From: a virus
Length of the DNA: 29,660 nucleotides
Direction: 5' to 3' (one strand)
IMG/VR virus record: IMGVR_UViG_3300036944_000382
Coordinates: 1-29,660 of that record
The position numbers were made by a program, and so were the translations under genes. The notes beneath the pieces were generated by a model. That model did not search any database. It saw only the letters and a list, made by a program, of their open reading frames with translations, and was not told the DNA's origin. Positions 1,740-28,786 of the stretch are shown here, piece after piece; within the stretch, counting starts at the first letter, position 1; every line of letters starts with the position of its first letter.

Positions 1740-1762
1740 TTCTTTTCATAGTTTTGTCATTA

Positions 1763-1787
1763 AACGCTCCTTCAAGGGGCGTTTTTT
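1763..1787 (+). terminator. Intrinsic terminator after the tail tube gene
   Basis: AACGCTCC (1763-1770) and GGGGCGTT (1776-1783) form an 8-bp stem with one T-G wobble and a TTCAA loop, followed by a run of T to 1787. It lies directly upstream of the conserved late element at 1791, so it separates two late transcription units. Confidence 0.82.
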
Positions 1788-1790
1788 GTT

Positions 1791-1819
1791 ACAAAACAAC
1801 AAAATTCAGTTATTATAGT
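1791..1819 (+). promoter_or_regulatory. Conserved late-gene upstream element, copy 1
   Basis: ACAAA at 1791-1795, ten bases, TCAGTTAT at 1806-1813, four bases, GT, then the ATG at 1820. The same element with identical spacing occurs before 21437 and 28816. It follows a terminator, as expected of a promoter for the portal/fibre/lysis unit. Recognition by the phage sigma factor (18783-19208) is inference. Confidence 0.65.
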
Positions 1820-2128
1820 ATGTGGATATTCAATTTAACTGCGCCTTACCAATTCCGATGCATTCCAAGAGGCTACAATAGTGGCGAAATCACGTTTTTA
1901 TTGCGTGATGAAACGCGAGACATTACTCACGAAATTGATGTGACTGGCGTATATTACCAAAACAACGTTTTAGTGTTGGTTTTTAGCTTGCCAATCATGA
2001 CCGAAGGCCAATCGTTTGAAGTTACAATCAACGAGGATGACAATTTAATTTATAGAGGCAAGGCTTACGCAACGGCTCAAACTGACTTAGAAAATTTTGA
2101 ACTCAATAAAGGAGTTTTAAAAGTATAA
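1820..2128 (+). CDS. Small structural protein of unknown function
   Basis: A 102-residue protein, the first gene of the portal-to-lysis unit. The start at ATG 1820 is chosen because the conserved element ends just before it; the frame is open farther upstream, but that region contains the terminator. The sequence alternates beta-prone segments (MWIFNLTAPYQF, GEITFLLRDETRDITHEIDV, VLVLVFSLPI) and looks like a small immunoglobulin-like or barrel fold. It ends 3 bases before the portal start. The adjacent head genes suggest a virion or head-completion role; no family is recognised with certainty. Confidence 0.7.
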   Translation: MWIFNLTAPYQFRCIPRGYNSGEITFLLRDETRDITHEIDVTGVYYQNNVLVLVFSLPIMTEGQSFEVTINEDDNLIYRGKAYATAQTDLENFELNKGVLKV

Positions 2129-2131
2129 TTT

Positions 2132-3844
2132 ATGGAAAAATTACAAATAATAAACCTATCGAATTACATTCGCCCTGAGATTAAAGAGGTGAGCGGTAAA
2201 AAGTGGGTATTAAATGGAGACAAAAACTCGTTTTATCAAGTGATTATTGACGCCTATAACGGATCGCCTACAAACTCGGCGATTATTGATAGTTATTCGC
2301 AGTTTATTTATGGTAAAGGATTGACCTCAAAAGACAAAGCACGCAAGCCATCAGAATGGGCGGCTATTATATCACTCGTTTCTAAAAAAGATTTACGTAA
2401 AATATGCAAGGATTTTGAGATGTTTGGCGAGGCTTCACTGGAGGTCAAATATGTAAACGGCAAAATTCAAAGATGTTTTCACGTAGCAAAACAAAGAATT
2501 GTTCCCGAAGTTGCAAACGAGGAGGGCGATATAACAGGATATTACTACTCGTATGATTTTTCAAACGTAAACAAATATAAGCCCGAACGTATGGACGCGT
2601 TTGGATTTGGCGAAGGTTTAGGCGAACGCTCTGAAATCTATATTATTCGCGATTACCAAGTAGGGCAATTTTACTATTCTAACCCGAGTTATGTGTCGGG
2701 AATTAGTTGGGCGAAAATGGAAGAGGAAATATCAAACTACTCAATTAATCACATTCAAAAAGGTTTGAGCTTTGGCCATATTATTAATATGAACGCTGGA
2801 GTCCAAGAATCAATTGAAACAATCCAAGAGAATACACGCCAAATCCGTAACCACTTAACAGGATCACAAAATGCGGGCGCATTCTTTTTAAATTGGAACG
2901 ACAACAAAGACTCCGAGATTACAATCTCAGCTTTGGAGGTTAGCGACGCCCATCAACAATATGCATATTTGAGCGAAGAGGCAAGGCAGCAACTTTGCAC
3001 ATCGCACAAATTGACATCGCAAATGCTCGTTGGAATTTCAAGCTCAAAAGGATTTAGTTCTACGGCTGACGAAATACGAGTAGGATTTGAGGAGTTAATG
3101 ATAAATGTAATCAAACCAAAGCAAGAGATTATACTCGACGGATTGATGGAGATTTTTGCCGTGAACGGAATTACTTTGGACTTACAATTTGAAAGTTTGA
3201 GAAGTGAAGAGCAAGTAATTGTTGAGCCTCCAACCGAAATAGTTACGCAATTAGCAGCGCAAGGCTTTGATGACTTAGGAGAGGACATCGATTTAAACGA
3301 ATGGGAACTTATAAGTTCCGAAGCGGTAGACTATGAAAAAGAGGCCGAGCTTGACGCTGAACTTGATCGCTTAAATGGAGTTAGTACTCAACTCATGAGC
3401 GTGGCAATGGCTTCGGTATCGACAGGAACTGCAAGACCGAACGCAAAAAGTTATCAAGACGGCGCGCTTTTTAAAAGCCGTTATCGTTATAGCGGAAATC
3501 TATCGCCCGAGCGTGAATTTTGCAAAGCTATGATGTCAAAAGACAAGCTTTATCGTAAAGAGGACATCGAAATGATGAGCCAAAGAAACGTAAACCCTGG
3601 CTTTGGAATGCACCCTAATCCAAATCAGCCTTATGATATCTTCCTTTGGAAAGGAGGAGGCTTACAAAGTGAGGCATTTCCTTTCGGAACTTGTAAACAT
3701 TTTTGGATTAGAGAGACCTATCGTAAAAGAGCGGATGTAAACAACCCACTTGCGGAGACAATTACACCAGCGCAAGCGAGAAAAGCAGGCGAAATCCTAC
3801 CAACAAATAACCCTAAAGCGTACATCGCGCCTCACGACATGTAA
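2132..3844 (+). CDS. Portal protein with C-terminal MuF-like/head-protein extension
   Basis: A 570-residue protein. The first 400 residues have the look of an SPP1/HK97-type portal: an N-terminal segment ending in DAYNGSPTNSAIIDSYSQFIYG, a basic linker, a middle domain (KICKDFEMFGEASLEVKY) and a long helical part with QQLCTSHKLTSQMLVG, typical of portals that discriminate productive orientations. An acidic linker around 390-410 leads to a separate C-terminal module (about 449-570) with YRYSGNLSPEREFC, a YRKEDIEMMS segment, FLWKGGG (near 505) and CKHFW (near 521). That module recurs at the end of head proteins in Bacteroidetes phages and recalls Mu gpF-like minor head domains. Role: dodecameric DNA entry vertex binding terminase. 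The portal assignment is firm from context; the identity of the C-terminal module is inferred. Confidence 0.8.
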   Translation: MEKLQIINLSNYIRPEIKEVSGKKWVLNGDKNSFYQVIIDAYNGSPTNSAIIDSYSQFIYGKGLTSKDKARKPSEWAAIISLVSKKDLRKICKDFEMFGEASLEVKYVNGKIQRCFHVAKQRIVPEVANEEGDITGYYYSYDFSNVNKYKPERMDAFGFGEGLGERSEIYIIRDYQVGQFYYSNPSYVSGISWAKMEEEISNYSINHIQKGLSFGHIINMNAGVQESIETIQENTRQIRNHLTGSQNAGAFFLNWNDNKDSEITISALEVSDAHQQYAYLSEEARQQLCTSHKLTSQMLVGISSSKGFSSTADEIRVGFEELMINVIKPKQEIILDGLMEIFAVNGITLDLQFESLRSEEQVIVEPPTEIVTQLAAQGFDDLGEDIDLNEWELISSEAVDYEKEAELDAELDRLNGVSTQLMSVAMASVSTGTARPNAKSYQDGALFKSRYRYSGNLSPEREFCKAMMSKDKLYRKEDIEMMSQRNVNPGFGMHPNPNQPYDIFLWKGGGLQSEAFPFGTCKHFWIRETYRKRADVNNPLAETITPAQARKAGEILPTNNPKAYIAPHDM

Positions 3845-3847
3845 TTT

Positions 3848-4357
3848 ATGGCAACTATTATACTACTTAAAGAAAACGAACTCACTAAAAACACCCTATT
3901 GGGGGGCAATATTGACATCGATTTATATATACCTTGCATCGCAGACGCGCAGCGCACGCGATTGGAGGAGATTTTAGGCGAGACGCTATACGATAAGATT
4001 TGCGACGACTTCGATAACGACGATTTGATGGACGATTACTTGATTTTGTACGAAGATTACATTAAACCATTTTTAATCGCTGCAAGCGCAGTAGAATACC
4101 TCCTAATCGGAGCATACAAAGTAAACAATAACGGTATATTTAAGTCCCAACCCGACAACTCGGTGGCGATTGACAAAACCGAGGTTGACTATTTGGTAAA
4201 TAATATGCGATTAAAAAGCGAGATGTATCAAGACCGCATGTTGCGCTGGCTTAATAAGTTCCATTTACCTGAGTATGTTAGCAATTCCAATAATATCGTC
4301 AACCCTTTGCGTTCGCGTTTGATTTGTGGCAAATGGTGGCTTGATCGACCATACTAA
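3848..4357 (+). CDS. Head-tail adaptor (DUF6712-like)
   Basis: A 169-residue, mostly helical protein immediately after the portal gene, the usual place of the gp6/gp15-type connector that sits under the portal. It contains an early DLYIPCIADAQRTRLEEILG segment, a YDKICDDFDNDD segment, a long helix with IKPFLIAASAVEYLLIGAYK, and a C-terminal RMLRWLNKFHLPEY segment. This pattern matches the DUF6712-like proteins common in Bacteroidetes phages. The start is ATG 3848, 4 bases after the portal stop. Family recognition is from memory of the pattern; the connector role is inferred from gene order. Confidence 0.7.
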   Translation: MATIILLKENELTKNTLLGGNIDIDLYIPCIADAQRTRLEEILGETLYDKICDDFDNDDLMDDYLILYEDYIKPFLIAASAVEYLLIGAYKVNNNGIFKSQPDNSVAIDKTEVDYLVNNMRLKSEMYQDRMLRWLNKFHLPEYVSNSNNIVNPLRSRLICGKWWLDRPY

Positions 4358-4360
4358 AAT

Positions 4361-4495
4361 ATGAGAAAAGTAGACAAACGAACTGAGGAAAACATCAAAA
4401 AATTAAAACTATTTTTAAAAAATGGCATCGACACTAAACTTTACGACAAAAAGGGGGGACACCTTCAAACAAACCGACTTCCAAATAAACGTTAA
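4361..4495 (+). CDS. Small protein, 44 residues, unknown
   Basis: An open frame starting 4 bases after the adaptor stop and overlapping the next gene by 74 bases. It begins with a basic helix (MRKVDKRTEENIKKLKLFLK) that looks coding; the latter half (GGHLQTNRLPNKR) lies over the next gene and may be constrained by it. In the densely packed late operon a gap here would otherwise be unusual. No family recognised. It may be a real short gene or the translated leader of the gene at 4422. Confidence 0.45.
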   Translation: MRKVDKRTEENIKKLKLFLKNGIDTKLYDKKGGHLQTNRLPNKR

Positions 4496-4745
4496 CGAGG
4501 CACCTCTAAACCTAACTGGTGGCGATGTTAGAATGCAATTGCGAAAAGAGGCAGGCGGTGTCGTTGCACTTGAGGTGCCAATCACTATTTTTGACGCTAC
4601 AAACGGCGAGTTTTGTATTGACGAGCAAATAATCGACATACAAGCTTGCACCTATAAATACGATATTCAAATTACTCAAGCGAGTGGCGAGGTTGATACT
4701 TGGATTAGTGGACTCTTTACAGTAACCGACGATATTACACGATAA
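4422..4745 (+). CDS. Small beta-rich virion protein (BppU N-terminal-like)
   Basis: A 107-residue protein with an early R-G-D-T-F motif (residues 11-15) followed by alternating strands (DFQINVNEAPLNLTGGDVRM, EVPITIFDATNGEFCI, CTYKYDIQITQASGEVDTW, GLFTVTDDITR). The arrangement resembles the Ig-like N-terminal domain of phage upper-baseplate proteins (BppU family), which links fibres to the tail. It ends 2 bases before the fibre gene starts, which agrees with a role in attaching the fibre. Family level is tentative. Confidence 0.6.
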   Translation: MASTLNFTTKRGDTFKQTDFQINVNEAPLNLTGGDVRMQLRKEAGGVVALEVPITIFDATNGEFCIDEQIIDIQACTYKYDIQITQASGEVDTWISGLFTVTDDITR

Positions 4746-4747
4746 GC

Positions 4748-6838
4748 ATGGCTGACAACGTTAATATAATAGTACAAGACACGATTAACGACATCGTCGT
4801 AAATGCAGCCGTTGTAGTTGAGACAATCGACATCAACGTGCAAGCTGCGGTCGATGTGGTTGACATCGTAGCGAATCCAAATAACTACGTTGTAAATATC
4901 AACCGAATTATTGGCGAGCAAGTGCAATCGGATTGGGATCAAACGGACAACCAAGCTCCCGACTACATTAAGAACAAACCGAGCATTCCTGCGGCCCAAG
5001 TCAATTCAGATTGGGATGCAACGAGCGGAGTGGCTGAGATTTTAAACAAGCCGTCAATCCCAACTGCAACAAGCGATTTAACAAACGATGGCGAAGACGG
5101 GATAAATCCGTTTATTACTTTGGCCGACGTGCCAGTGCCTACAAATGGACTGCCTGCGGGTGGAACGGCGGGTCAAATACTAACTAAGGTTGATGCAACT
5201 GATTACAACGCAACTTGGCAAGAGAATTTCGCTGATTGGACTTCAGTTGTAAAACACACCGTTAAAAATAACGGCCTTAGTGGAACGATAACCAAAGGGA
5301 CTGCGGTATATGTAACGGGTAGCAACGGAACAAATATGCTCGTTGGACGTGCAAGTAACACAAGCGAAGCGACATCGAGCAAGACGATGGGACTAATGCA
5401 GTCGGACATAACAACAACGGGAGGCAATCAAACGGGGTTTGTGATAACTGAGGGTTTAATTCAAGGATTGAACACTGCGGGACAAACTGCGGGCGACCCT
5501 GTTTGGTTGGGTGTAAATGGCGCGTTAATTTACGGCCTTGCGAATAAACCTTATGCTCCTGCTCACTTAGTTTTTATTGGAATAGTTACAAAGATAAGCG
5601 CAGGAAATGGCGAGATATTTGTCAAAGTACAAAACGGGTTTGAGCTAAAAGAAATTCACGACGTCGACATCATTACAACCACTCCAATAAACGGCCACTT
5701 ACTTGGATTTGATGGCACGCTTTGGGTTAATAAAACAATTGCAACGTGGTTAGGGTTTACACCACAGGAAGCAATAACACTTACAACAACAGGCTCAAGT
5801 GGTGCAGCAACATTAGTTGGCGCAACATTGAATATTCCGCAATATAGTGGCACAAATATATATAATGCAGATGGCACGTTAACAAGCGCGCGAACTTTAA
5901 CAAGTGGAGGTTTTCCTTTAACTTTTACAGGAATCAACACGGCTGCAAGTGCAATAGCAAGAGGTTTAAATTTAACACATACTTTAATAGCTGCTGCAAA
6001 TAGCGATGTACTTGTGGGTTTAGATATTAACCCAACTTTTACAAATGGAGCGTTTACAGGGGTTAGTACATTTGGTTTAAGATTAAATAAAAGCATAACA
6101 ACTGCACCTGCTACATTTACAAATACAAACGACATACTTTTAAGAAATTCAGCTTCGGCTACGAGTAACTCCTTAGTTTCTCACTCTCCTGCCGTTTTTT
6201 ATAATGGTAATACATTTGATGGAGTATCAAGTATTCCAATTTCCTTTAGACAATACTTACAAGCAGGACTTGGTGGTGGAAATACCGTTGGTATATTATC
6301 TTTTGAGGGAAGTTATAATAATGCAACTTACGCACAAATAGCGTCAATAAGAACAGGAAGCGCATCGGGAAGTAATCAATTTAGAGTAACAGGAAATTCT
6401 AATGTAATAAGTTCAGTACCTGCAAATTCAGCAGCATTTATTGCAGGAAATGGAAGCGCAGGATTGGCTATTGCTAATTATGGAAATGGAGCAGCAGAAA
6501 TGCAAACTCATAATTATACTTCCATTCCTAATATACCATTAATTATAAATCGCCAAGGTGGAAACTTGCTAATAAACACCACGACCGACGCAGGCTTTAA
6601 ATTAGACGTAAACGGCACGGCGAGGATAGTTAATAAATTATCAGTTGGCACTCCTTCTGCTGCTTCTGCTTTAATGGAAATTACATCAACTACTTTAGGC
6701 TTTTTACCACCAAGAATGACAACCACGCAAAAGAATGCAATAGCTACACCCGCTGCGGGATTGGTTGTTTATGATACAACACTTTCAAAATTATGCGTAA
6801 GAACGGCCTCATCGTGGGAAACAATAACATCAATATAA
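4748..6838 (+). CDS. Tail fibre / receptor-binding protein
   Basis: A 696-residue protein of modular design. Residues 1-58 form a Val/Asn-rich N-terminal attachment segment. Residues 59-105 hold two copies of a QSDWD...NKPSIP module common in Bacteroidetes phage fibres. Near residue 133 is LPAGGTAGQILTKVDATDY, another recurrent fibre repeat. A middle domain follows (KHTVKNNGLSGTITKGTAVY). From about residue 345 the composition shifts to a Thr/Gly/Ala/Asn-rich, more AT-rich shaft. The end has LDVNGTARIVNKLSV and LPPRMTTTQKNAIATPAAG, motifs seen at the tips of Bacteroidetes fibre and adhesin-like proteins. It probably binds the host surface. The change in codon use between N-terminal and C-terminal halves suggests modular exchange of the tip. 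Confidence 0.8.
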   Translation: MADNVNIIVQDTINDIVVNAAVVVETIDINVQAAVDVVDIVANPNNYVVNINRIIGEQVQSDWDQTDNQAPDYIKNKPSIPAAQVNSDWDATSGVAEILNKPSIPTATSDLTNDGEDGINPFITLADVPVPTNGLPAGGTAGQILTKVDATDYNATWQENFADWTSVVKHTVKNNGLSGTITKGTAVYVTGSNGTNMLVGRASNTSEATSSKTMGLMQSDITTTGGNQTGFVITEGLIQGLNTAGQTAGDPVWLGVNGALIYGLANKPYAPAHLVFIGIVTKISAGNGEIFVKVQNGFELKEIHDVDIITTTPINGHLLGFDGTLWVNKTIATWLGFTPQEAITLTTTGSSGAATLVGATLNIPQYSGTNIYNADGTLTSARTLTSGGFPLTFTGINTAASAIARGLNLTHTLIAAANSDVLVGLDINPTFTNGAFTGVSTFGLRLNKSITTAPATFTNTNDILLRNSASATSNSLVSHSPAVFYNGNTFDGVSSIPISFRQYLQAGLGGGNTVGILSFEGSYNNATYAQIASIRTGSASGSNQFRVTGNSNVISSVPANSAAFIAGNGSAGLAIANYGNGAAEMQTHNYTSIPNIPLIINRQGGNLLINTTTDAGFKLDVNGTARIVNKLSVGTPSAASALMEITSTTLGFLPPRMTTTQKNAIATPAAGLVVYDTTLSKLCVRTASSWETITSI
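4922..5062 (+). repeat. Two degenerate SDWD...NKPSIP modules in the fibre gene
   Basis: Residues 59-82 and 85-105 of the fibre each begin V-(Q/N)-S-D-W-D and end N-K-P-S-I-P. The module lengths differ, so the repeat is at the protein level, not an exact DNA repeat. Such modules are commonly iterated in Bacteroidetes phage fibres. Confidence 0.7.
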
Positions 6839-6844
6839 ATAAAA

Positions 6845-7096
6845 ATGGCACAAATTCAACCGATTGATTTCCCCTTTACAGGCGAAGCAACACAACTAAA
6901 AGTTTTAATACTTAACTTTCCAACCGATGCGAATACTTGCACAACTTACAACGAACTATTAACCGAAGAGGGTGTAATGTGTGCAAATTGGAACTACACG
7001 CTAACCGATGACGAGTTTGCAGCGTGGGGCGAGGATAACACGTGGATTGAAAATTGCGTAGCAAAAGACAAAGGAATTACAATTTTAACATACTAA
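6845..7096 (+). CDS. Hypothetical small protein after the tail fibre
   Basis: An 83-residue acidic protein with three cysteines (near residues 26, 40 and 65) and several tryptophans, no membrane segment and no signal peptide. It starts 6 bases after the fibre stop. The first part, QPIDFPFTGEATQLKVLIL, and the strand-rich layout suggest a small beta domain. Proteins of this type often sit just after fibre genes in Bacteroidetes phages and may be fibre-tip chaperones or accessory proteins; that role is inference from position only. Confidence 0.65.
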   Translation: MAQIQPIDFPFTGEATQLKVLILNFPTDANTCTTYNELLTEEGVMCANWNYTLTDDEFAAWGEDNTWIENCVAKDKGITILTY

Positions 7097-7098
7097 AA

Positions 7099-7236
7099 AT
7101 GGAGGAGTTAAACGTACTTAAACAAGCGATTGAAATTGCAGTAAAAGCGGGAGTTTATCAAATGGCCGATGTTGTGGCTTTGTCCCAAATATTGGATAAA
7201 TTAGAGACAAAACTCAAAGAAAATGCAGACGATTAA
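7099..7236 (+). CDS. Hypothetical small helical protein
   Basis: A 45-residue protein beginning MEELNVLKQAIEIAVKAGVY and ending LDKLETKLKENADD. It is almost entirely helical, with charged termini. The start is set at ATG 7099, 2 bases after the preceding stop; an in-frame ATG at 7054 lies inside that gene and gives a less likely extension. Its end overlaps the holin candidate by 14 bases, so it belongs to the lysis operon. No family is recognised. Confidence 0.6.
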   Translation: MEELNVLKQAIEIAVKAGVYQMADVVALSQILDKLETKLKENADD

Positions 7237-7420
7237 GGAACACATTTTGCCAATTATTCTAATCGTTTTTGGAATACTTGACCAAACGACTCATTTGCTT
7301 GTTGATCTCATATCGCAATTAGGCTTGCCAGTTTACTGCGGGACAATTCTAAAAATAATAGTTATTACTTTGGGAGGGATAAAATTGTACCTTTCGCAGC
7401 CAAACAAATTAAACTCATGA
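7223..7420 (+). CDS. Holin candidate, two membrane segments
   Basis: A 65-residue protein with two hydrophobic segments, about residues 7-29 (ILPIILIVFGILDQTTHLLV) and 36-57 (YCGTILKIIVITLGGIKLYL), joined by a short turn, with a polar C-terminus. Size, two-segment topology and position two genes before the endolysin fit a class II holin that permeabilises the inner membrane. The first residues overlap the preceding gene. The next gene also has a membrane segment, so which of the two makes the hole, or whether they act together, cannot be decided from sequence. Confidence 0.62.
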   Translation: MQTIKEHILPIILIVFGILDQTTHLLVDLISQLGLPVYCGTILKIIVITLGGIKLYLSQPNKLNS

Positions 7421-7707
7421 GCATTGAAAGCGAACGCCTCGACCGAATAGAGCAACACATCAAAGAGATTAAAAAAGACTCCGAGATTCGCTCGGCTGAC
7501 ATCAAAGAGATTAAGCAGGCTCTACTCGGTAACGATCTCAACGGATTTCGTGGCCTTGTTTGGAAAATATCAGACATCGACACGCGAGTAATTGATTTGG
7601 AGGAGAACGATGCCGAGCTTAAAGTGTACGTTAAACAAGCCAAAGTCATAGCCGTAGCGTTCACCGCTGCGCTCGTTACATTATTATTTAAAGCCTTTGC
7701 AAAATGA
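7417..7707 (+). CDS. Coiled-coil protein with C-terminal membrane anchor (holin-associated)
   Basis: A 96-residue protein: N-terminal charged coiled coil (residues 1-70, with repeated I/L heptads such as RLDRIEQHIKEIKK and IDTRVIDLEENDAELKVYV) followed by one hydrophobic segment (AKVIAVAFTAALVTLLFKAF) at the C-terminus. This topology resembles XhlA-type holin accessory proteins. It overlaps the holin candidate by 4 bases and the endolysin by 4 bases, an ATGA-type arrangement implying coupled translation. Function as a holin partner is inferred from topology and context. Confidence 0.65.
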   Translation: MSIESERLDRIEQHIKEIKKDSEIRSADIKEIKQALLGNDLNGFRGLVWKISDIDTRVIDLEENDAELKVYVKQAKVIAVAFTAALVTLLFKAFAK

Positions 7708-8150
7708 AACTAAATAACGCGGGTTATCGATTGATTTGTAAATTTGAGGGGTTTAGCTCCAAGCCGTACCTTTGCAGCGCGAAAGTGCCGACCATAGGGT
7801 ACGGGAATTGCTACTATACAAACGGCAAAAAGGTCACGCTACTCGACCAACCAATCACTGAACTCGAAGCCTTTAAGTTGTTTAAGGTTATCGCTGATAA
7901 ATTCGCGGCAAAAGTGAGTAAATTAGTAACGGCTCCGCTTGATCAGGGACAATTTAACGCACTGGTTTCACTTGCGTACAACATAGGCCCTGCCAACTTT
8001 GAAAAATCCACGCTATTGCGTAAGGTAAACTTCAACCACTTGGATCCTTCGATTCGGGCCGAGTTCTTAAAATGGAATAAGGCAGGCGGGAACGTTTTAA
8101 AAGGTCTTACAATTCGACGCAAAACCGAAGCCGATATTTATTTTGAGTAA
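7704..8150 (+). CDS. Endolysin, GH24 (T4-type) lysozyme
   Basis: A 148-residue muramidase that cleaves the MurNAc-GlcNAc bond of peptidoglycan. The catalytic glutamate is E15 in C-K-F-E-G-F; T30 in P-T-I-G-Y-G-N matches T4 lysozyme T26. Position 24, equivalent to T4 D20 (E+9), is cysteine (Y-L-C-S-A), a natural variant known in GH24 enzymes. The family signature continues with QFNALVSLAYNIGPANF near residues 87-103 and a C-terminal GLTIRRKTEADIYF segment. There is no signal peptide, so release depends on a holin, in agreement with the two upstream membrane proteins. The length is normal for the family. Confidence 0.9.
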   Translation: MKLNNAGYRLICKFEGFSSKPYLCSAKVPTIGYGNCYYTNGKKVTLLDQPITELEAFKLFKVIADKFAAKVSKLVTAPLDQGQFNALVSLAYNIGPANFEKSTLLRKVNFNHLDPSIRAEFLKWNKAGGNVLKGLTIRRKTEADIYFE

Positions 8151-9150
8151 AACACAAATTACATACAAGGGCGAAATTGCCCGCGAGTATATTGCAAAGT
8201 TTCCAAAGTCATCAACGATGGCGATTTCAAGACTATTGCACCAAGACTATCCGATTGATTTTACGAGCGTTGACAATGCGCGAGGTATAGTGCGAACACA
8301 TCGCAACGAACACACTAATAGGCCACAAAAAGACGCAATCGGAGAACGGACTGAACAAGAAAAAAAGGACTTTATGAAAACAAGTGCATTTGAGTTACCA
8401 GAAAGCGACTACGAAAAGCAAGGCACGGTCATCGTTCCAAACAAAAACATTCTCTTTTTAACCGACATTCACTTCCCCTACCAAAACAACGACGCGCTTA
8501 GGCTTGCTATCGATTACGGCAAGGTCGAGAAGGTCGACTGTGTTTATCTTAATGGCGATACTATCGACATGTATATGTTATCGAGGTTTATTAAGGATCG
8601 CCGTTTGCGAAATATGGCCGACGAGCTTGAGATGACGCGCAACTTTTTAAAGAATTTACAGGATCACTTCCAATGTCCGATATATTTTAAGATTGGAAAC
8701 CACGAGGATCGTTGGCAAAACTTCCTCAAATTACAAGCTCCCGAATTGTTGGGTATTCCTGACTTTGAATTGGCAACTATTTTGCGATTTGGCGAGTTCG
8801 GAGTGCAAGAGGTTAAGAGTAAACAAATCGCAAAGGCGGGCAAATTACCACTATTGCACGGTCACGAATTCTTTAGCGGCTTTGCTCCACCTGTTAACCC
8901 AGCGCGTGGGCTTTATATGAAAGCAAAAGAGAGCTGTATTATTGGCCACCACCATAGAACAAGCGAACATACTGAGGTTAATCTTAGCGGAGACGTGACA
9001 ACCACCTGGAGTGTCGGCTGCCTTTCAGGATTAAGCCCGGATTATATGCCTTTCAACTCTTGGAATAACGGAATGGCCCACATTCGCGTTGAGAAAACAG
9101 GCGATTATGAGGTTAATAACCTTAGAATAGTGGAAAATAAAATTCGATAA
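8143..9150 (+). CDS. Calcineurin-like metallophosphoesterase with N-terminal HTH-like region
   Basis: A 335-residue protein. All metal-binding motifs of the calcineurin-like superfamily are present in order: D-I-H (108-110), G-D-T-I-D (138-142), G-N-H-E (185-188), H-G-H (239-241) and G-H-H-H (268-271). The first 60 residues (EIAREYIAKFPKSSTMAISR) look like a small helix-turn-helix module, so it may bind nucleic acid. The start is TTG at 8143, overlapping the endolysin end by 8 bases; the first in-frame ATG is at 8218 and would cut the N-terminal module. Related proteins are common in Bacteroidetes phages, but the substrate is unknown. The position inside the lysis cassette is odd for a DNA-repair-type phosphoesterase. 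Confidence 0.85.
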   Translation: MSKTQITYKGEIAREYIAKFPKSSTMAISRLLHQDYPIDFTSVDNARGIVRTHRNEHTNRPQKDAIGERTEQEKKDFMKTSAFELPESDYEKQGTVIVPNKNILFLTDIHFPYQNNDALRLAIDYGKVEKVDCVYLNGDTIDMYMLSRFIKDRRLRNMADELEMTRNFLKNLQDHFQCPIYFKIGNHEDRWQNFLKLQAPELLGIPDFELATILRFGEFGVQEVKSKQIAKAGKLPLLHGHEFFSGFAPPVNPARGLYMKAKESCIIGHHHRTSEHTEVNLSGDVTTTWSVGCLSGLSPDYMPFNSWNNGMAHIRVEKTGDYEVNNLRIVENKIR

Positions 9151-16174: not shown

Positions 16175-17391
16175 TGGAACTACGTGACTACCAAACAAAA
16201 ATCTCAGCTGAGGCGGTTGAGATTTTACGAAATAAACACATCGTGTATTTGGCGATGGAGGTGCGCACTGGCAAGAGTTTGACCGCTTTAAATACGGCGC
16301 AACTTTACGGGGCAAAAAAAGTATTGTTTTTAACAAAAAAGAAGGCTATCTCCTCTATCCAGTGGGACTACGACAACTTCGGGTTTACGTTTGATTTATC
16401 CATCATTAACGATGAATCGATGCACTTAGTGACGGGAAATTTCGACTTAATCATACATGACGAACATCACAGGTATGGTGCATTTCCTAAGCCTAACGCA
16501 ACGGCCAAAGAGTTTAAGAAACGATTTTCTAAACTACCGATGATATTCCTAAGCGGTACGCCAACACCCGAGTCATATTCTCAATGGTACCATCAATTTT
16601 GGGTAAGTGATTATTCGCCCTATAAAAACTATGCGAATTTTTATAAGTGGGCCGCTGAGTACGTCGACATAAAGGAGAAACGTTTAGGCTATGCCGTTGT
16701 AAAGGACTACTCAAATGCAAAAGAGAATCTCGTACGAAGATCCACACGGCCGTATATTATAACTTTCACACAAAAGGAGGCAGGGTTTACGACCAGCGTT
16801 AACGAGATGGTACTGGAGTGCGAGATGCAGCCAATCACTTACGAGGTTATTCGCAGACTTAAGAAGGACTTGATAGTTCGCAACGGACAAGGGCAGGTTA
16901 TTTTAGGGGATACAGGCGTTAAGTTGATGCAAAAAATGCACCAACTGTCAAGCGGTACTTGTAAGTTCGAAGACGGAACGAGCAAAGTAATCGACGACTC
17001 AAAGGCAAGGTTTATAAAAGAAAAGTTTCAAGGCGAGAAAATCGCAATATTTTATAAATTCAAGGCTGAATGGGACGCGCTGCTGCAAGTATTTGGAGCA
17101 GATTACTTGACAAATTCAGTTGAGGAGTTTGACTCGACCGATAAAAACATTGCCCTTCAGATACTTTCCGGAAGGGAAGGCGTCTCTTTAAAAAACGCAA
17201 AGTATCTCGTTTACTATAATATCGATTTTAGCGCGACGAGTTACTGGCAAAGCCGTGCGAGGCTAACTACAAAAGAGCGTTTAAATAACGAGGTCTTTTG
17301 GATATTCTCAAAAGGCGGTATCGAATACGATATTTATAAAACCGTGCAACAAAAAAAAGACTTTACACTTGCGATATTTAAAAAACTTTGA
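16174..17391 (+). CDS. SF2 DNA helicase (DEAD/SNF2-like)
   Basis: A 405-residue helicase. It has an N-terminal L-R-D-Y-Q segment, Walker A M-E-V-R-T-G-K-S (K34), a D-E-H-H box (96-99) in place of DEAH, motif III S-G-T-P-T-P (127-132), and motif VI Q-S-R-A-R near 359-363. The compact length and lack of extra domains match phage recombination or replication helicases. It may act in fork restart or branch migration with the nuclease encoded next to it. It is the last gene of the second early operon; a promoter-like box and a terminator follow immediately. Confidence 0.85.
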   Translation: MELRDYQTKISAEAVEILRNKHIVYLAMEVRTGKSLTALNTAQLYGAKKVLFLTKKKAISSIQWDYDNFGFTFDLSIINDESMHLVTGNFDLIIHDEHHRYGAFPKPNATAKEFKKRFSKLPMIFLSGTPTPESYSQWYHQFWVSDYSPYKNYANFYKWAAEYVDIKEKRLGYAVVKDYSNAKENLVRRSTRPYIITFTQKEAGFTTSVNEMVLECEMQPITYEVIRRLKKDLIVRNGQGQVILGDTGVKLMQKMHQLSSGTCKFEDGTSKVIDDSKARFIKEKFQGEKIAIFYKFKAEWDALLQVFGADYLTNSVEEFDSTDKNIALQILSGREGVSLKNAKYLVYYNIDFSATSYWQSRARLTTKERLNNEVFWIFSKGGIEYDIYKTVQQKKDFTLAIFKKL

Positions 17392-17399
17392 TATATTTG
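17369..17399 (+). promoter_or_regulatory. Promoter-like box just before a terminator
   Basis: TTG at 17369-17371 and TATATTTG at 17392-17399 are 20 bases apart. The terminator at 17432-17461 lies only about 30 bases downstream, so any transcript would be a short RNA without a gene. It may be a real small-RNA promoter or a chance match in AT-rich DNA. Confidence 0.35.
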
Positions 17400-18388: not shown

Positions 18389-18545
18389 GGTGCCAATAAC
18401 CGCACCCATGCACATCAATAAGCAAGGGCGAGAGTTTTATATCAGCGGGATTTGTTACAATACCGCTTTTTGCCGTTATATAGATACAGGAGAAATAATT
18501 GAAGTTAAAAGTAACTTGGTATCGAAATATTTAGTAGGTTTGTAG
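18354..18545 (+). CDS. Hypothetical small beta-rich protein
   Basis: A 63-residue basic protein starting at ATG 18354 inside the end of the DUF3310 gene (35-base overlap). Segments KIYKGLEVPITAPMHIN, EFYISGICYN and IIEVKSNLVSKYLVGL suggest a small SH3-like barrel. It ends 4 bases before the next gene. No family is recognised. Confidence 0.58.
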   Translation: MRAGSKIYKGLEVPITAPMHINKQGREFYISGICYNTAFCRYIDTGEIIEVKSNLVSKYLVGL

Positions 18546-18549
18546 CGAT

Positions 18550-18783
18550 ATGGTAAAACCGCACACTATAAGTACACAAATGTGGCTTGAACAAGAGGAC
18601 GATGATCTTGGAATGGGTGGGAGCTTTGTCGAGTTTCGAATAATGGTTGACGCAATTAACGGCTACTGGGTTGAGAACGAAAGCGAGATTTGTATCGTAG
18701 TGCAAGGAACGGTCTACTATGTCGAGAATAACGAGGCTCTATTGCTTTTTTTATCGGAATATTTTAATCCTATGACCCTGTAA
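18550..18783 (+). CDS. Hypothetical small acidic protein
   Basis: A 77-residue acidic protein with an E-Q-E-D-D-D-L-G-M-G-G segment, then strands (FVEFRIMVDAINGYWV, ICIVVQGTVYYV) and a C-terminal helix (NEALLLFLSEYF). It ends in a TAATG junction with the sigma factor gene, so the two are probably co-translated. It might be a partner or regulator of the sigma factor, but only the junction suggests this. Confidence 0.58.
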   Translation: MVKPHTISTQMWLEQEDDDLGMGGSFVEFRIMVDAINGYWVENESEICIVVQGTVYYVENNEALLLFLSEYFNPMTL

Positions 18784-19208
18784 TGCTCAAGGAATTAGCC
18801 AAAAAAGATGCCCAATGGCGCAAGATGGCTTTCCAAATATGCAAAGACAAGGACTTGGCCGACGAGTTAGTACAGGAAATGTATCTTAAATTGTATCAAA
18901 ATACCAATCTAATAAAAGAAGGGTATATATATACAGTTCTAAGAAACCTATTCTATGATTATGCAAAGCAGCAAAAGGATATAATAGTAGATTTTAGTAA
19001 TATCGAGATTGAGGACACTGAATACATCGAGCCAGTTGATTACTTTCAACTTATGAAAGGGTTAACTTGGTACGAGCGCACAATGTTTGAGCTTTCAACT
19101 TTGGTCGGTCAACGTGAACTTAGCCGTCAAACAGGCATACATTTACAAACTATCCATCGAGTTAATAAGATGGTAAAATCTAAAATAAATGGCAAAAAGA
19201 AGAACTAA
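18783..19208 (+). CDS. Phage sigma-70-like (ECF-type) RNA polymerase sigma factor
   Basis: A 141-residue protein. Residues 26-66 resemble sigma region 2, with A-D-E-L-V-Q-E-M-Y-L-K-L and Y-I-Y-T-V-L-R-N-L-F-Y-D-Y-A-K, the -10 recognition and polymerase-binding helices. Residues 92-134 resemble region 4: ERTMFELSTLVGQRELSRQT followed by G-I-H-L-Q-T-I-H-R-V-N-K, a helix-turn-helix for the -35 element. Only these two regions are present, as in ECF factors. Short sigma-like proteins upstream of terminase genes recur in Bacteroidetes phages. It probably directs host polymerase to late genes; the element shared by 1791, 21408 and 28787 is the natural target candidate. The target is inferred. Confidence 0.75.
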   Translation: MLKELAKKDAQWRKMAFQICKDKDLADELVQEMYLKLYQNTNLIKEGYIYTVLRNLFYDYAKQQKDIIVDFSNIEIEDTEYIEPVDYFQLMKGLTWYERTMFELSTLVGQRELSRQTGIHLQTIHRVNKMVKSKINGKKKN

Positions 19209-19774: not shown

Positions 19775-20044
19775 ATGGATAATAGAAAAAATAATGGCGG
19801 ACATAGCACAAAAGCAACTCGGCCTGATGACAAAAGAAAAAACAAATTCAAAGAGGAAATAAACGAAGCATTTAATACTGAAGACATTATTCAAGTTTTA
19901 ACAATGCTTAAAATAAAAGCAATCGGAGATCAAGACGTTCCAGCGGCTAAATTGTTTTTAGAGTATACAGTTGGTAAACCTGATCAAACTATCGATGTTG
20001 AAGGAGTTACAATTCCTGTAATTGATATGAGTAAATGGACATAA
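19775..20044 (+). CDS. Terminase small subunit (probable)
   Basis: An 89-residue protein. The basic, Gly/Asn-rich start (N-N-G-G-H-S-T-K-A-T-R-P) is followed by helical segments (FKEEINEAFNTEDIIQVLTM, VPAAKLFLEYTVGKP) like those of short TerS-type proteins of Bacteroidetes phages. It overlaps the large terminase gene by 10 bases. It would recognise the packaging site and stimulate the motor. Short for a TerS; assigned mainly by position and family resemblance. Confidence 0.7.
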   Translation: MDNRKNNGGHSTKATRPDDKRKNKFKEEINEAFNTEDIIQVLTMLKIKAIGDQDVPAAKLFLEYTVGKPDQTIDVEGVTIPVIDMSKWT

Positions 20045-21300
20045 TACCTCCAAATTTAACTACATACCAAAAAAAAATATTAAACTCAAAATCACGTTTT
20101 ACTATTACTGAGGCTTCAACCAAAGTAGGTAAAACGTTTTCTCATATTATATGGCTATTTGGTAAAGCTCATGAAAATGAAAACCAACAAGGCCACAACT
20201 ATTGGTGGGTTGCTCCTGTATTTAATCAATCTAAAATCGCATTTAATCGACTTAGACGATATTTGGCAGCTACAAAATTGTATAAATTTAACGAGACAAA
20301 TTTAATTATCTATTGTCCAAATGGAGCGGAGATACATTTTAAGTCGGCAGAAAAGCCTGATAATTTGTATGGGGAGGATGTTTATGCTTGTGTATTTGAC
20401 GAGGCGCCAAGAGCAAGAGAGGAAGCGTGGTTTGCTTTGCGTTCGACATTAACCTCAACAAATGCTCCTTGTAAATTAATAGGCAATTTTGGTGGGATTT
20501 CAAACTGGGTTCATAGATTAAAGGAAAAAGCCAAAACCGATAAAGAATACGAATATTTTAAAGTCACTTGTTGGGATGCAGTTGCTGAGGGTATTATTGA
20601 GGAGGAGGAAATACTGCAAGCAAAACGTGATTTGCCCGAAAAAATATTTAAGGAACTTTATGAAGCGGAGCAATCTGAAGACGAAGGCCAATTAATGACC
20701 AATGAAAGCATAGTAAAATTATTTTCAAACACACACATTGAAATCGGTATAAAATATATTACTGCGGACATCGCTCGATTAGGTCGAGACAAAACAGTAA
20801 TATTTTGTTGGGATGGATTTAGAGTTGTAGAAGTTTTTGAAATGCAAGTTTCAAGGGTTGACGAAAGCGTCGACGCTATAAATAAGTTAGCCGAAAAATA
20901 TAATGTAAACCGCAATAATATTATTGTGGATGAGGATGGAGTCGGCGGAGGAGTTAAGGATTATTTAAAATGCTTAGGATTTACAAATAATGCTAAACCT
21001 ATAAAATATAATAATAAAGAGGAAAATTTCCAAAATATTAAAACTCAATGCTATTATAAATTAGCCGAGACCGTAAACCGAAATGAAATATACATAAATT
21101 GCAATGAAAAACAAACTGAGCAATTAACTGAGGAGCTTGAAATGGTAAGATTAGCAAGAGAAACTGATGCTACAAAAATAGCTTTAATAAACAAAGACGA
21201 AATAAAAAAGAAAATAGGAAGATCTCCCGATTATTCCGACGCTTTAATGATGCGGATATATTTTGAATTAAAGCCAGTTCGTAAAGTTATCATAACGTAG
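20035..21300 (+). CDS. Terminase large subunit
   Basis: A 421-residue DNA-packaging motor. ATPase: Walker A A-S-T-K-V-G-K-T (27-34), Walker B V-F-D-E (E123 catalytic), and coupling motif L-I-G-N-F-G-G (148-154). RNase-H-fold nuclease: Y-I-T-A-D-I-A-R-L-G-R-D (D245), I-I-V-D-E-D-G-V-G-G-G (D299) and P-D-Y-S-D-A-L-M (D402). Start at ATG 20035 within the end of the small subunit gene. The DNA is AT-rich, like the small subunit gene, and unlike the structural genes that follow. It ends the third early/middle operon; a 136-base gap follows. Confidence 0.93.
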   Translation: MDIIPPNLTTYQKKILNSKSRFTITEASTKVGKTFSHIIWLFGKAHENENQQGHNYWWVAPVFNQSKIAFNRLRRYLAATKLYKFNETNLIIYCPNGAEIHFKSAEKPDNLYGEDVYACVFDEAPRAREEAWFALRSTLTSTNAPCKLIGNFGGISNWVHRLKEKAKTDKEYEYFKVTCWDAVAEGIIEEEEILQAKRDLPEKIFKELYEAEQSEDEGQLMTNESIVKLFSNTHIEIGIKYITADIARLGRDKTVIFCWDGFRVVEVFEMQVSRVDESVDAINKLAEKYNVNRNNIIVDEDGVGGGVKDYLKCLGFTNNAKPIKYNNKEENFQNIKTQCYYKLAETVNRNEIYINCNEKQTEQLTEELEMVRLARETDATKIALINKDEIKKKIGRSPDYSDALMMRIYFELKPVRKVIIT

Positions 21301-21407
21301 GTTATTTGATACCAATATGCACTTTTTGCATACAATAGCGGACACCCGATAAGGTGCAATTGCATGAATTTTTCCGAAAATCGTACCTAAGAGGGTACAA
21401 AAAATAA

Positions 21408-21436
21408 ACAAAACCACAAAAATCAGTTATATAAGT
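21408..21436 (+). promoter_or_regulatory. Conserved late-gene upstream element, copy 2
   Basis: ACAAA at 21408-21412, ten bases, TCAGTTAT at 21423-21430, four bases, GT, then ATG at 21437: the same spacing as copies 1 and 3. The gap before it (21301-21407) holds a TATGCA/TGCATA hairpin around 21317, palindrome GCAATTGC at 21356-21363, and GTACCT/GGGTAC (21383-21398), with no T run, so no clear terminator. Confidence 0.65.
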
Positions 21437-22129
21437 ATGAGAGTAGTTATTCCAACATCACTAAGCGAGATAAAATTGTCTCAATATTCGAGATACCAAA
21501 AGGTATTAAAGGACAATTTAGACGATGAAACCTTTGTTTGCATTCAAATGGTGGCGATATTTTGCAACCTAACGGTGGCCGATGTAATGAAAATCCCTGT
21601 AAATGATTTTACTAATATTATTGAGACTCTTGCAAAGGTATTGGATCAAAAACCGAAGCTCGTGCGCACGTTCAAAATGAATGGTGTAAACTACGGTTTC
21701 ATTCCGAACTTTGATAAGATTACACTCGGCGAGCACGCAACGATTGACACCTTACTGGGAACTGATGAAAATATACCGCTATTAATGTCGGTACTTTATA
21801 GACCTATTAAACGCAAAGCAGGCGAATTTTATGAGATTGAAGAGTACGATGGTGACGAAAGCAAGGCTGATTTTTATAAGGACGTCACAATGGATATTGT
21901 GGTGGGTTCGATGCTTTTTTTTTGGACTTTAAACAAGGAATTGTTGAGCAATATCCTATCGCATTTGGAGGCCAAAGCAGCGAGGGAGGGACTGAATTTG
22001 GAGGAAATTTTGGAGAGCGCTGGGGTTGGTATCAAAGCTTTGTTCGATTGTCGCGTGAACTTAGAATCCACGTTCGAGATGTGGGAAAAGAGCATCTTCA
22101 TGAATCACTCACGTTACTATCTTACCTAA
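21437..22129 (+). CDS. Tail assembly chaperone, gpG-like (0-frame product)
   Basis: A 230-residue protein, first gene of the tail operon, directly preceded by the conserved late element. It begins VVIPTSLSEIKLSQYSRYQK, a start typical of tail assembly chaperones in Bacteroidetes siphoviruses, and contains FVCIQMVAIFCNLTVADVMKI near residue 35-54. Around residue 159-162 (M-L-F-F) the gene crosses nine T in a row. Beyond this it continues as W-T-L-N-K-E-L-L-S-N and a helical end. It would coat the tape measure during tail assembly together with the frameshift product. Its distance from the tape measure gene (several genes) is greater than usual. Confidence 0.75.
   Translation: MRVVIPTSLSEIKLSQYSRYQKVLKDNLDDETFVCIQMVAIFCNLTVADVMKIPVNDFTNIIETLAKVLDQKPKLVRTFKMNGVNYGFIPNFDKITLGEHATIDTLLGTDENIPLLMSVLYRPIKRKAGEFYEIEEYDGDESKADFYKDVTMDIVVGSMLFFWTLNKELLSNILSHLEAKAAREGLNLEEILESAGVGIKALFDCRVNLESTFEMWEKSIFMNHSRYYLT
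21915..21923 (+). other. Poly-T slippery site for -1 ribosomal frameshifting
   Basis: The 0-frame reads CTT TTT TTT TGG. The run contains the heptamer T-TTT-TTT in register, which allows both tRNAs to re-pair after a -1 slip. The -1 frame is closed upstream by TAA at 21877 and stays open to 22179. Confidence 0.65.
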
Positions 22130-22179
22130 TCGATGAATCCTTAGAGGAGGCCAAACAAATTAAAAAACAAATGAAATAA
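21922..22179 (+). CDS. -1 frame extension of the tail chaperone (gpGT-like T part)
   Basis: A second open frame, -1 relative to the gpG-like gene, reachable by slippage at 21915-21923. Fusion after residue 162 gives a product of about 247 residues. It contains G-N-F-G-E-R-W-G-W-Y-Q-S-F-V near the middle, resembling the W-G-W-Y motif in T parts of Bacteroidetes phage chaperones, and a helical end (LLSYLIDESLEEAKQIKKQM). It ends exactly where the next gene starts. Between 21922 and 22129 both frames appear to code. Independent initiation at TTG 21922 is possible but less likely. Confidence 0.65.
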   Translation: MDFKQGIVEQYPIAFGGQSSEGGTEFGGNFGERWGWYQSFVRLSRELRIHVRDVGKEHLHESLTLLSYLIDESLEEAKQIKKQMK

Positions 22180-22643
22180 TGCGAACATTTTACCAAGCAA
22201 TTGACTACATAAAAACCACGCTCGAAAGTGCGCCGCTTTTGAATACAATCACTCAAGGCACGGACATAATCGACAACGTCAAAAAAAACATATTCCCATT
22301 AGCTCACATCAATGTACTATCGTCAGTCGTTAGTACTGGCGTTGTAACTTTCACTTTTGAGGTGGCAGTTGTTGACATTCGCAATATGTCAAAGGTGCAA
22401 ATCAAGGACAAATTTTTAGGCAACGATAACGAGCTTGACAACCTAAACACTTGCCACGCGATACTCAATTACATGATCACGAAAATGCAGCTCAGACGAA
22501 ACGAGAACGACATCGAACTTTTAAACGAGCCTAATTTGCAGCCGATATTTATGGCGTTTACAAATGCGCTTGACGGTTGGAAGTGTGACATTGAGTTAAG
22601 CGTTCCAAACGATCAATTCTCAGTTTGCTGCGATGGAAACTAA
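22179..22643 (+). CDS. Probable tail terminator / tail completion protein
   Basis: A 154-residue alpha/beta protein with an N-terminal helix (FYQAIDYIKTTLESAP), strands (VTFTFEVAVVDIRNM), a helix (ELDNLNTCHAILNYMITKMQ) and further strands (WKCDIELSVP). This layout resembles the tail terminator fold (lambda gpU-like), and the neighbouring genes fit. It starts on the last base of the frameshift frame and overlaps the next gene by 11 bases. The assignment is by layout and position. Confidence 0.5.
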   Translation: MRTFYQAIDYIKTTLESAPLLNTITQGTDIIDNVKKNIFPLAHINVLSSVVSTGVVTFTFEVAVVDIRNMSKVQIKDKFLGNDNELDNLNTCHAILNYMITKMQLRRNENDIELLNEPNLQPIFMAFTNALDGWKCDIELSVPNDQFSVCCDGN

Positions 22644-23166
22644 AATAGTTCAACAAGCCCTAAATGATTTTGGCGCGTTAGTTGTTCAACGAGCGCAGGA
22701 AAATCTTAAAACGGGAAGTAAAAAATATGGAACGCACAACGCAAGCGGCAACCTATCGAGGTCACTCACGTTCAAAACAAAGATAAATCCGAACTCGTTG
22801 GAGTTTGACTTCTTTGCTGAGTCGTATTGGAAGCTATTGGATTACGGAACAACAGGAAGTCAATCGAGTAGAAAGGCACCACAATCGCCATACAAGGCCA
22901 ACGCGTCAATAGGTGCGATTGATAAATGGGTGGTTCGTAAGGGACTAAAAGGCACCCGAAGTGCAAGTGGACAATTTACAAGCCGCAAATCGTTAGTCGC
23001 AGCGAGAACTCGCTCGATAAATAAGACAGGAACACCCGAGACGAAGTTTTTTCGCTCGGCCTTTGAATTAGAATATCAAAACTTTGACCAAATTGTGGCT
23101 GAAAAATACGGCTTAGACTTGGAAACATTTTTAAAATTTGTAGTAAATGAAAATATTAAACGTTAG
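22633..23166 (+). CDS. HK97 gp10-like head-tail/tail completion protein
   Basis: A 177-residue basic protein. The start (KIVQQALNDFGALVVQRAQ), T-H-N-A-S-G-N-L-S-R-S-L-T-F near residue 36-49, and Y-W-K-L-L-D-Y-G-T-T-G near 65-75 are typical of the HK97 gp10/neck type II family in Bacteroidetes phages, as is the P-Q-S-P-Y segment and the F-F-R-S-A-F near the end. It would connect head and tail. It overlaps both neighbours (11 and 20 bases). Unusually, it is encoded after the chaperone gene, not before the tail tube gene. Confidence 0.62.
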   Translation: METKIVQQALNDFGALVVQRAQENLKTGSKKYGTHNASGNLSRSLTFKTKINPNSLEFDFFAESYWKLLDYGTTGSQSSRKAPQSPYKANASIGAIDKWVVRKGLKGTRSASGQFTSRKSLVAARTRSINKTGTPETKFFRSAFELEYQNFDQIVAEKYGLDLETFLKFVVNENIKR

Positions 23167-24247
23167 AAGTCCCTATTTTTTACAAGTGCGCGAGGAGACT
23201 CAAGTCGCTGCACAAATACGGCTTTACATTTGGCACAAAGGCGAAACGCAACCAGCGCAACCGACCTATTACCTTGAGAAAAAAATACCTTCTCCAACTG
23301 ATTTTGAGATAGTATTCAATATCGCGCCGTTTATAGCCGAGCAAATCAATCCAATTGACGCTACTCCAGAAATTTATCCCGACCAAGAGAATAACGACGC
23401 TTGGGTGTATGTGTTTGCGGAGTCTTACTACCAAATCGCAGACGATAAAACGTGGTATATTGACCGAGAATTTAATTTTGTAGGCGTTACAGGTTTCACA
23501 TCTTACATGGATGGGTATAATCAAATCACGGACGCAAAGATTGCCTACTTGACAAATCCCGATATTAAATATTATTTTGACGAGGATTTAACTCAAGCCG
23601 AATTACCATATTTTAACGTTTTAATTGATCACGATGGGGAGTCACTTACGGAGGTTAAATGGACGAATCGTAGAAGTTTGTCCTCAAGTACATTCACTCT
23701 TTTGGATGGAAGTTTTGACGCTGACATTTATATGTTTAAAATCCCTGCAAAAAATGTAGAGATTACAAACCACAATTTCGGCAATGATATAATAATCGAG
23801 AGCGAGCTGGTTGAAACGATACAACCTACCGTAACAATGATACCAATTTGCGAGGGCAAATACACGCCAGTAGTGTGCGAGTTTTTAAATCGATTTGGAG
23901 GGTGGCAATTCCTTACGTTTTTCAAAGCGCAAACCAATAGTTTGCAAACTGAAAACTCAACCTTCCACTTATTGCCTGACGCGTTAGACTATAACCCACT
24001 TCGCAATCAGTTCCAATCGTTCAATTTTAGCGGTAAGCAATCAGTCACTTTAAATACAGGTTGGGTTGATGAGAACTTTGCAAATGTAATCACGGATTTG
24101 ATGCTTAGCGAGACTGTTTTACTTGACAACAAGCCTGTAAATGTAAAGACAAAATCGACCAATTTAAAAACTCGAATCAAAGATAAAAATATCAATTATA
24201 CAATTGATTTCGAGTACTCGTATAACCTAATTAACGACGTGATTTAA
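23147..24247 (+). CDS. Tail protein (possible distal tail/baseplate component)
   Basis: A 366-residue beta-rich protein with no membrane segments. Early segments (VRSPYFLQVREETQVAAQIR, L-Y-I-W-H-K-G, EIVFNIAPFIAEQINP) and later C-E-G-K-Y-T-P-V-V-C-E-F and G-G-W-Q-F-L-T-F-F-K resemble a conserved structural protein of Bacteroidetes siphoviruses encoded next to the large tail-tip protein. It stops directly before the next gene, suggesting tight coupling. Tail location is inferred from gene order. Confidence 0.65.
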   Translation: MKILNVRSPYFLQVREETQVAAQIRLYIWHKGETQPAQPTYYLEKKIPSPTDFEIVFNIAPFIAEQINPIDATPEIYPDQENNDAWVYVFAESYYQIADDKTWYIDREFNFVGVTGFTSYMDGYNQITDAKIAYLTNPDIKYYFDEDLTQAELPYFNVLIDHDGESLTEVKWTNRRSLSSSTFTLLDGSFDADIYMFKIPAKNVEITNHNFGNDIIIESELVETIQPTVTMIPICEGKYTPVVCEFLNRFGGWQFLTFFKAQTNSLQTENSTFHLLPDALDYNPLRNQFQSFNFSGKQSVTLNTGWVDENFANVITDLMLSETVLLDNKPVNVKTKSTNLKTRIKDKNINYTIDFEYSYNLINDVI

Positions 24248-26611: not shown

Positions 26612-26741
26612 TAATATATTACAAATGCTCCAAATCACGGAGCAATACGAGAAAAACGAAACGATATCTATTGCCAAGGGGCGATACGAATACACGCGCA
26701 ACTATTTACAACTATTTAAAAAAGCACTGAAATGGCAATAG
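26604..26741 (+). CDS. Small tail-operon protein, 45 residues
   Basis: An open frame overlapping the tail-tip gene end by 8 bases and the tape measure start by 10 bases. It fills an otherwise empty 120-base gap. The helical sequence (MLQITEQYEKNETISIAKG, R-Y-E-Y-T-R-N-Y-L-Q-L-F-K-K-A-L) looks coding. No family is recognised; a small assembly factor is possible. Confidence 0.6.
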   Translation: MLNNILQMLQITEQYEKNETISIAKGRYEYTRNYLQLFKKALKWQ

Positions 26742-28669: not shown

Positions 28670-28707
28670 CTATAACCTTAAAAAAATATAAAATTTTAAG
28701 GTTATAG
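28670..28707 (+). repeat. Perfect 14-bp inverted repeat after the tape measure gene
   Basis: CTATAACCTTAAAA (28670-28683) and its exact complement at 28694-28707 flank a 10-base A/T loop. There is no T run, so it is a weak candidate as an intrinsic terminator; it may protect mRNA ends or bind a protein. It starts 9 bases after the tape measure stop. Confidence 0.75.
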
Positions 28708-28768: not shown

Positions 28769-28786
28769 AACGAAAAAAAGTTTATA

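Follow-up and report, generated by a model that had tools for sequence, protein, structure and literature searches.

Organization of the window and its structural gene units

The window, by which we mean the whole stretch of DNA analysed here, is an entire virus record of 29,660 bases and carries three structural gene units on the plus strand, together with a terminase block and a gene for a putative sigma factor (Table 1). The ends of the contig meet inside a protease-like gene. In a near-identical contig (L018) the end and the start of the window are contiguous, with an overlap of 4 nt. The genome is therefore probably complete and circularly permuted, with the protease gene of the third unit continuing at window position 3. 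The phage is small and its host is probably a member of the Bacteroidota, as judged from the presence of promoter boxes of the host type and from matching phages of Nonlabens, Flavobacterium and Cellulophaga.

Matches to the host-type promoter pattern TTG-N19-24-TAnnTTTG are present in gaps of the early region near 9675, 13153, 13186 and 17369, the last of which is a possible source of the first sigma transcripts; at the level of pattern matching only, such sites are also found upstream of the sigma gene in relatives. Among the ORFs of the window there is none that is both large enough and unassigned to be a phage RNA polymerase, and a search for a T7-type RNA polymerase (PF00940) returned no match, its control likewise returning none.

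Table 1 Features of the window discussed in the text.
Feature	Position	Strand	Description
Candidate late promoter element 1	1788..1819	+	-35-like TTACAAA 1789-1795; -10-like CAGTTAT 1807-1813; ATG 1820; head/portal unit; exact copy; 26.2 bits; orthologous site in ~79 related loci
Candidate late promoter element 2	21405..21436	+	-35-like TAAACAAA; -10-like CAGTTAT; ATG 21437; tail unit downstream of large terminase; exact copy; 31.3 bits; ~76 related loci
Candidate late promoter element 3	28784..28815	+	-35-like ATAACAAA; -10-like CAGTTAT; ATG 28816; protease/capsid unit across contig ends; exact copy; 19.3 bits; ~77 related loci
Fourth element	18454..18485	+	GTTACAATA-N11-CCGTTATATAGAT; 22.4 bits; inside ORF 18354-18545
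Intrinsic-terminator-like hairpin	1762..1789	+	Arms 1762-1772/1774-1784; T run adjoins -35 box of element 1
Perfect 14-bp inverted repeat	28670..28707		Between tape-measure-like gene and element 3; no T run
Host-type promoter-like site	17369..17399	+	TTG-N20-TATATTTG; upstream of VRR-NUC/sigma gene run; pattern match only
Unit behind element 1	1820..9150	+	102-aa head-region protein; portal 2132-3844; DUF6712 protein; tail-fibre-like ORF; lysozyme 7704-8150; phosphoesterase
77-aa ORF, first gene after element 4	18550..18783	+	Family searches gave no match
ECF-like sigma factor gene	18783..19208	+	141 aa; region 2, linker, C-terminal helix-turn-helix
89-aa ORF	in block 19775..21300	+	Putative small terminase, by position
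Large terminase	20035-21300	+	PF03237 2.3e-5; phrog_2 terminase 1.1e-29
Unit behind element 2	21437..28660	+	Phage proteins of unknown function; tail-completion-like ORF; tape-measure-like ORF 26732-28660
Unit behind element 3	28816..29660	+	Protease-like gene, cut at contig end, resumes at window start 3-257
Unit behind element 3, rest	261-1160, then 1215-1739		261-1160 likely capsid, by position

Three structural units begin with an identically spaced element

The initial annotation had described an element with invariant spacing before the structural genes at 1820, 21437 and 28816. Searching the whole window bore this out, as ACAAA-N10-TCAGTTAT-N4-GT-ATG occurs exactly at 1791–1822, 21408–21439 and 28787–28818, all on the plus strand, and no match to the full 32-mer beyond these three was found with up to three mismatches allowed. 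By chance a mean of 0.02 copies is expected (100 shuffles), and three copies were never reached. Each copy adjoins the ATG of its structural unit and lies, as had been noticed, in a gap (80, 136 and 155 nt, respectively), and the hairpins reported before two of the three are indeed present. The same annotation held these gaps to be free of the host-type TAnnTTTG box, which needs qualification: no such box lies downstream of any element at promoter distance, so that the elements do not have the form of a Bacteroidota sigmaA promoter, but the first gap does contain a TAGTTTTG box, at 1749, that has no -33 partner at host spacing. Elsewhere in the ORF list the motif is absent before 35 of the 36 other gene starts, the exception being 18550, where it lies 64 nt upstream.

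At each of the three gene starts, which are unrelated to one another, the element is kept in ~80 relatives, down to ~52% protein identity, and in these phages it stands before the gene that opens each structural unit. Comparison of orthologous upstream regions indicated that two boxes are conserved, a -35 box [A/T]ACAAA and a -10 core [A/C]GT[T/C], while the linker between them drifts; the invariant TCAGTTAT is a local form specific to the clade of the window. The -35 box is hard to see in two of the relatives (G008 and G009). We rejected a strict covariation of the core variant with the sigma variant, since one clade (clade C) mixes AGTT and AGTC.

Element 3 contains the dyad TTATAAC-N16-GTTATAA, as might be expected of an operator or of the site of an activator, similar to C of phage Mu, that controls promoters read by a host sigma. 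Neither elements 1, 2 and 4 nor the relatives keep this dyad, however (TTACAAA, TAAACAAA), and there is no host -7 box at a constant distance downstream; the operator reading was rejected on the first of these grounds, and we regard it as very improbable.

A fourth copy lies upstream of the sigma factor gene

From 125 distinct sites in relatives (less than 90% identity, taken from the three gene starts only and with the ATG excluded) we built a weight matrix and scored the window with it. The three known elements and a fourth site, which ends just before 18486, were the best-scoring positions (Table 1), with the next site at 12.2 bits; in 200 dinucleotide-shuffled windows the best score was 18.4 bits, below all four, and the mean best score was 9.9. 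The initial annotation, in which no fourth copy was noticed, is therefore incorrect on this point. The fourth copy reads GTTACAATACCGCTTTTTGCCGTTATATAGAT and is followed by ACAGGA, with no ATG; it lies 64 nt before the ORF at 18550 and ~300 nt before that at 18783, which places it ahead of both the sigma gene and the genes of the terminase unit. A further candidate site, at 19144 inside the sigma gene, was dropped because it lies in conserved codons of the helix-turn-helix (HTH).

Of 73 sequences from upstream of the sigma gene, 64 contain the element as the strict pattern and 4 more contain it with one core base changed (68/73). It was not found in the remaining 5 (L008–L012), and self-activation would thus not be universal; the clade formed by L008–L011 has no copy before the sigma gene yet keeps the elements at the gene starts.

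The fourth copy of the window lies inside an ORF, and coding constraint was considered as its cause. In a second clade the element is the best-conserved block of a variable stretch of ~170 nt ahead of the sigma gene, and in four sequences (L161, L164, L185 and L205) a stop codon within the element interrupts the overlapping frame; in another sequence (L202) the element lies directly before the ATG of the sigma gene. In the clade of the window the silent third positions of both boxes are invariant, a result to be read with the selecting pattern in mind, as this fixes both boxes, although all 30 clade members passed it and did likewise with a looser pattern. The in-element stops of the second clade and the invariant silent positions of the window clade led us to reject the view that coding constraint accounts for the fourth copy; since the ORF itself is conserved in the window clade, part of the conservation of element 4 may nevertheless be coding.

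These findings bear on whether the element is a promoter or, as the initial annotation allowed, a new signal for translation initiation just upstream of the ATG. That three copies end on an ATG at an exact distance would fit a translation signal, as would the use by Flavobacterium of A-rich, Kozak-like contexts with an A at -3 (PMC6847099). Against this, the fourth copy is conserved upstream of the sigma gene with no ATG of its own, and the motif extends ~29 nt upstream and is restricted to the first genes of operons. We therefore consider a translation signal to be extremely improbable. A promoter is favoured by the bipartite make-up of the element, by its rigid spacing, by its position at the first gene of structural units, and by a distance to the ATG that is that of ECF promoters; of the two possibilities first raised, it is the promoter with a leaderless or near-leaderless mRNA that is better supported.

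The phage encodes an ECF-like sigma factor

Within the genome a single ORF, at 18783–19208, matches sigma-70 region 2 (Pfam PF04542, E 9e-7, 29 bits against a cut-off of 24 for the window protein). PF04542 is matched by 13 of 18 family members, and the profile made from the alignment of 18 relatives matches the sigma factor in PDB 5uxx (9e-6) and 1h3l (SigR). The NCBIfam model sigma70-ECF (TIGR02937) is matched by 16 of the 18 (best 1.3e-11), but the window protein itself reaches only 25.2 bits (E 1e-5) against a cut-off of 42.9, and we therefore call it ECF-like and do not file it as a member. Region 4 is weak by sequence (its Pfam model is matched by 1 of the 18) and is suggested mainly by a helix-turn-helix in the predicted structure: the AF2 model (pLDDT 76, pTM 0.40) has a three-helix, HTH-like C-terminal part at residues 96–140, after a linker of low confidence. 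The best Foldseek matches of the model are ECF sigmas in RNA polymerase complexes (E 1.8e-4 to 7.5e-4), in whole-chain alignments with low TM-scores. In one homologue (L157, 9998–10528) the linker that joins region 2 to the HTH carries an insertion of ~35 residues.

Each of the 26 related contigs searched has the sigma gene. Phage 11b has a related terminase but neither an ATG-adjacent site nor a match to sigma. We consider it likely that the element is a promoter for host RNA polymerase carrying the phage sigma, and that these late promoters are autoregulated and mostly leaderless. Early genes would be transcribed from host-type TTG/TAnnTTTG promoters, which would also provide the first sigma. 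The -10 core [C/A]GTT would be recognized by region 2 of this sigma and the -35 box [A/T]ACAAA by its region 4, the spacing between them being rigid, as is typical of ECF promoters. The sigma would next switch on element 4, which precedes the sigma gene itself and the genes for the terminase, in a positive feedback, and also elements 1, 2 and 3, which would serve the portal/lysis, tail and protease/capsid units. Cellular ECF sigmas, too, often have a promoter before their own gene.

The elements could instead be late promoters that are read by an alternative (ECF) sigma of the host, or by its sigmaA, the phage sigma then having some other role. ECF sigmas are numerous in Bacteroidota hosts, and on either reading it is the core RNA polymerase of the host that the phage uses. 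The TAnnTTTG box of sigmaA is missing from the element, however; copies track the phage sigma gene in every relative examined, and one copy of the window lies before that very gene, which makes recognition by a host sigma quite unlikely.

The -10 core tends to lie at a fixed distance from the start codon

We measured the distance between -10 cores and the ATGs of long ORFs in a set of 23 genomes that are not independent of one another (20 related genomes, P12024S, phage 11b and the window). The core starts 12 nt before the ATG 70 times, as against 4–41 times at each other distance from 5 to 39, and once at the 12-nt distance on the reverse strand. The peak recurs in divergent lineages, with 6 cases in G006, 4 in G007, 5 in P12024S and 3 in the window. 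With a lenient pattern, ATG-adjacent sites in the window and the 22 other phages number 78 on the forward and 0 on the reverse strand, where ~8 are expected from shuffles.

The distance from the G of GTT to the start codon is 11 nt in elements 1–3. Published transcription starts of ECF and phage sigmas lie ~6–10 nt from this core (PMC6411747; PMC8948821), those of phage sigmas being placed 6–9 bp from the promoter element (PMC8948821). Together these distances would put the start of transcription at elements 1–3 within ~0–3 nt of the ATG. On this positional argument the late mRNAs of these elements should be leaderless or nearly so. Such messages would be unusual for the likely host phylum, since leaders of more than 10 nt are found in 87% of those Flavobacterium johnsoniae transcripts that have a probable promoter (PMC6847099).

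That figure, and the fact that element 4 tolerates a leader of 64 nt, would also suit a sigma promoter whose late mRNAs carry ordinary leaders and start well upstream of the ATG, an arrangement compatible with the sigma-promoter part of our reading. A fixed distance of 12 nt over very divergent phages would have no reason if transcription started elsewhere, however, and the phage-sigma start distances given above speak against it as well; we hold ordinary leaders to be unlikely. More broadly, it is possible, though less likely than not, that in a widespread lineage of the Bacteroidota type a dedicated ECF-like sigma both times late transcription and makes the structural mRNAs leaderless, a minority mode in Flavobacterium. 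If true, not just the class of promoter but also the way in which translation is initiated would change at the late switch.

Comparison with known sigma factors and promoters

Phage sigmas that drive late promoters are already known from phiEco32 and 7-11, and as in those systems the window has a phage sigma gene and a repeated element before late genes; its sigma would direct the host core RNA polymerase to the elements. According to the passages of PMC8948821 drawn on here, phage 7-11 uses a sigma with a region 4-like C-terminus (SaPh711_gp47) and host core RNA polymerase at eight bipartite promoters before late genes (GTAAtg-16-aCTA), has its early genes on host-sigma promoters, and counts sigma24 of Winogradskyella, a member of the Bacteroidota, among the closest cellular homologues of gp47. 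It differs in being an enterobacterial phage with other box sequences, and those passages mention neither leaderless transcripts nor a promoter before the sigma gene. They describe gp36 of phiEco32 as a phage sigma for middle and late genes that, unlike the present case, has no homology to region 4 and uses single-element tAATGTAtA promoters with no -35 box (PMC8948821).

Cellular ECF sigmas, such as SigH (PMC6411747) and SigL (PMC6372665) of M. tuberculosis, have region 2 and a C-terminal HTH, with a GTT core at -10, AAC at -35 and rigid spacing in their promoters, and the window sigma and its candidate promoters resemble them in these respects; the promoter of SigH is GGAACA-17-GTT with a rigid spacer (PMC6411747). 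The window sigma differs from them in being phage-borne and short (141 aa), in having no recognizable anti-sigma partner, and in a spacer of 15 in its clade, where 16–17 is usual for ECF sigmas. In Deinococcus-Thermus a -10 box beside the start codon likewise makes leaderless mRNA, there as a cellular pattern of the whole phylum (PMC12340547).

A cultured phage, Nonlabens phage P12024S (P12024S/L, Inhavirus), carries at the corresponding position ahead of the terminase a gene with sigma-70 region 2, gp33, annotated earlier only as 'contains sigma-70 region 2'. We found seven copies of the element in P12024S, before gp01, 05, 08, 35, 41, 44 and 45, which are structural or terminase-region genes. 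The geometry is AAC-N17-CGT(TA) at six of the seven and N16 at gp41, and AACA-17-GTT, present at most sites, is the geometry reported for SigH (PMC6411747). In contrast to the window, P12024S has the core CGTTA, a spacer of mostly 17 and no copy before the sigma gene, and its portal is only 36% identical; the window clade has an AC-containing -35 box and a spacer two bases shorter.

What is new here is the Bacteroidota-type lineage, the locking of the element to the start codon and the copy before the sigma gene in most members; a literature search that covered little of the subscription literature turned up no description of a late-promoter class in this phage lineage. With a promoter code that can be read alongside the sigma gene, late operons would be callable from sequence in many uncultured phages of the Bacteroidota type. 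Sigma and promoter are also a candidate orthogonal pair for Flavobacteria, and would provide a natural setting in which to see how ribosomes independent of Shine-Dalgarno sequences deal with leaderless messages.

Two further observations concern P12024S and a possible host. In P12024S (L098), host-type TATATTTG boxes that face the other way (2980, 5365 and 23927, minus strand) overlap three of the seven late elements, each box directly preceding a small minus-strand ORF (gp04, gp07 and gp40), CAAATATA near the -35 box being the reverse complement of the host -7 box; these overlaps are possibly back-to-back early and late promoters. A relative of the sigma with 38% identity is encoded on a contig (L247) binned in a Bacteroidetes MAG (isolate ZE-Jul18-81), other contigs giving weaker matches, and this contig, which is likely to be of phage or prophage origin, could name a host.
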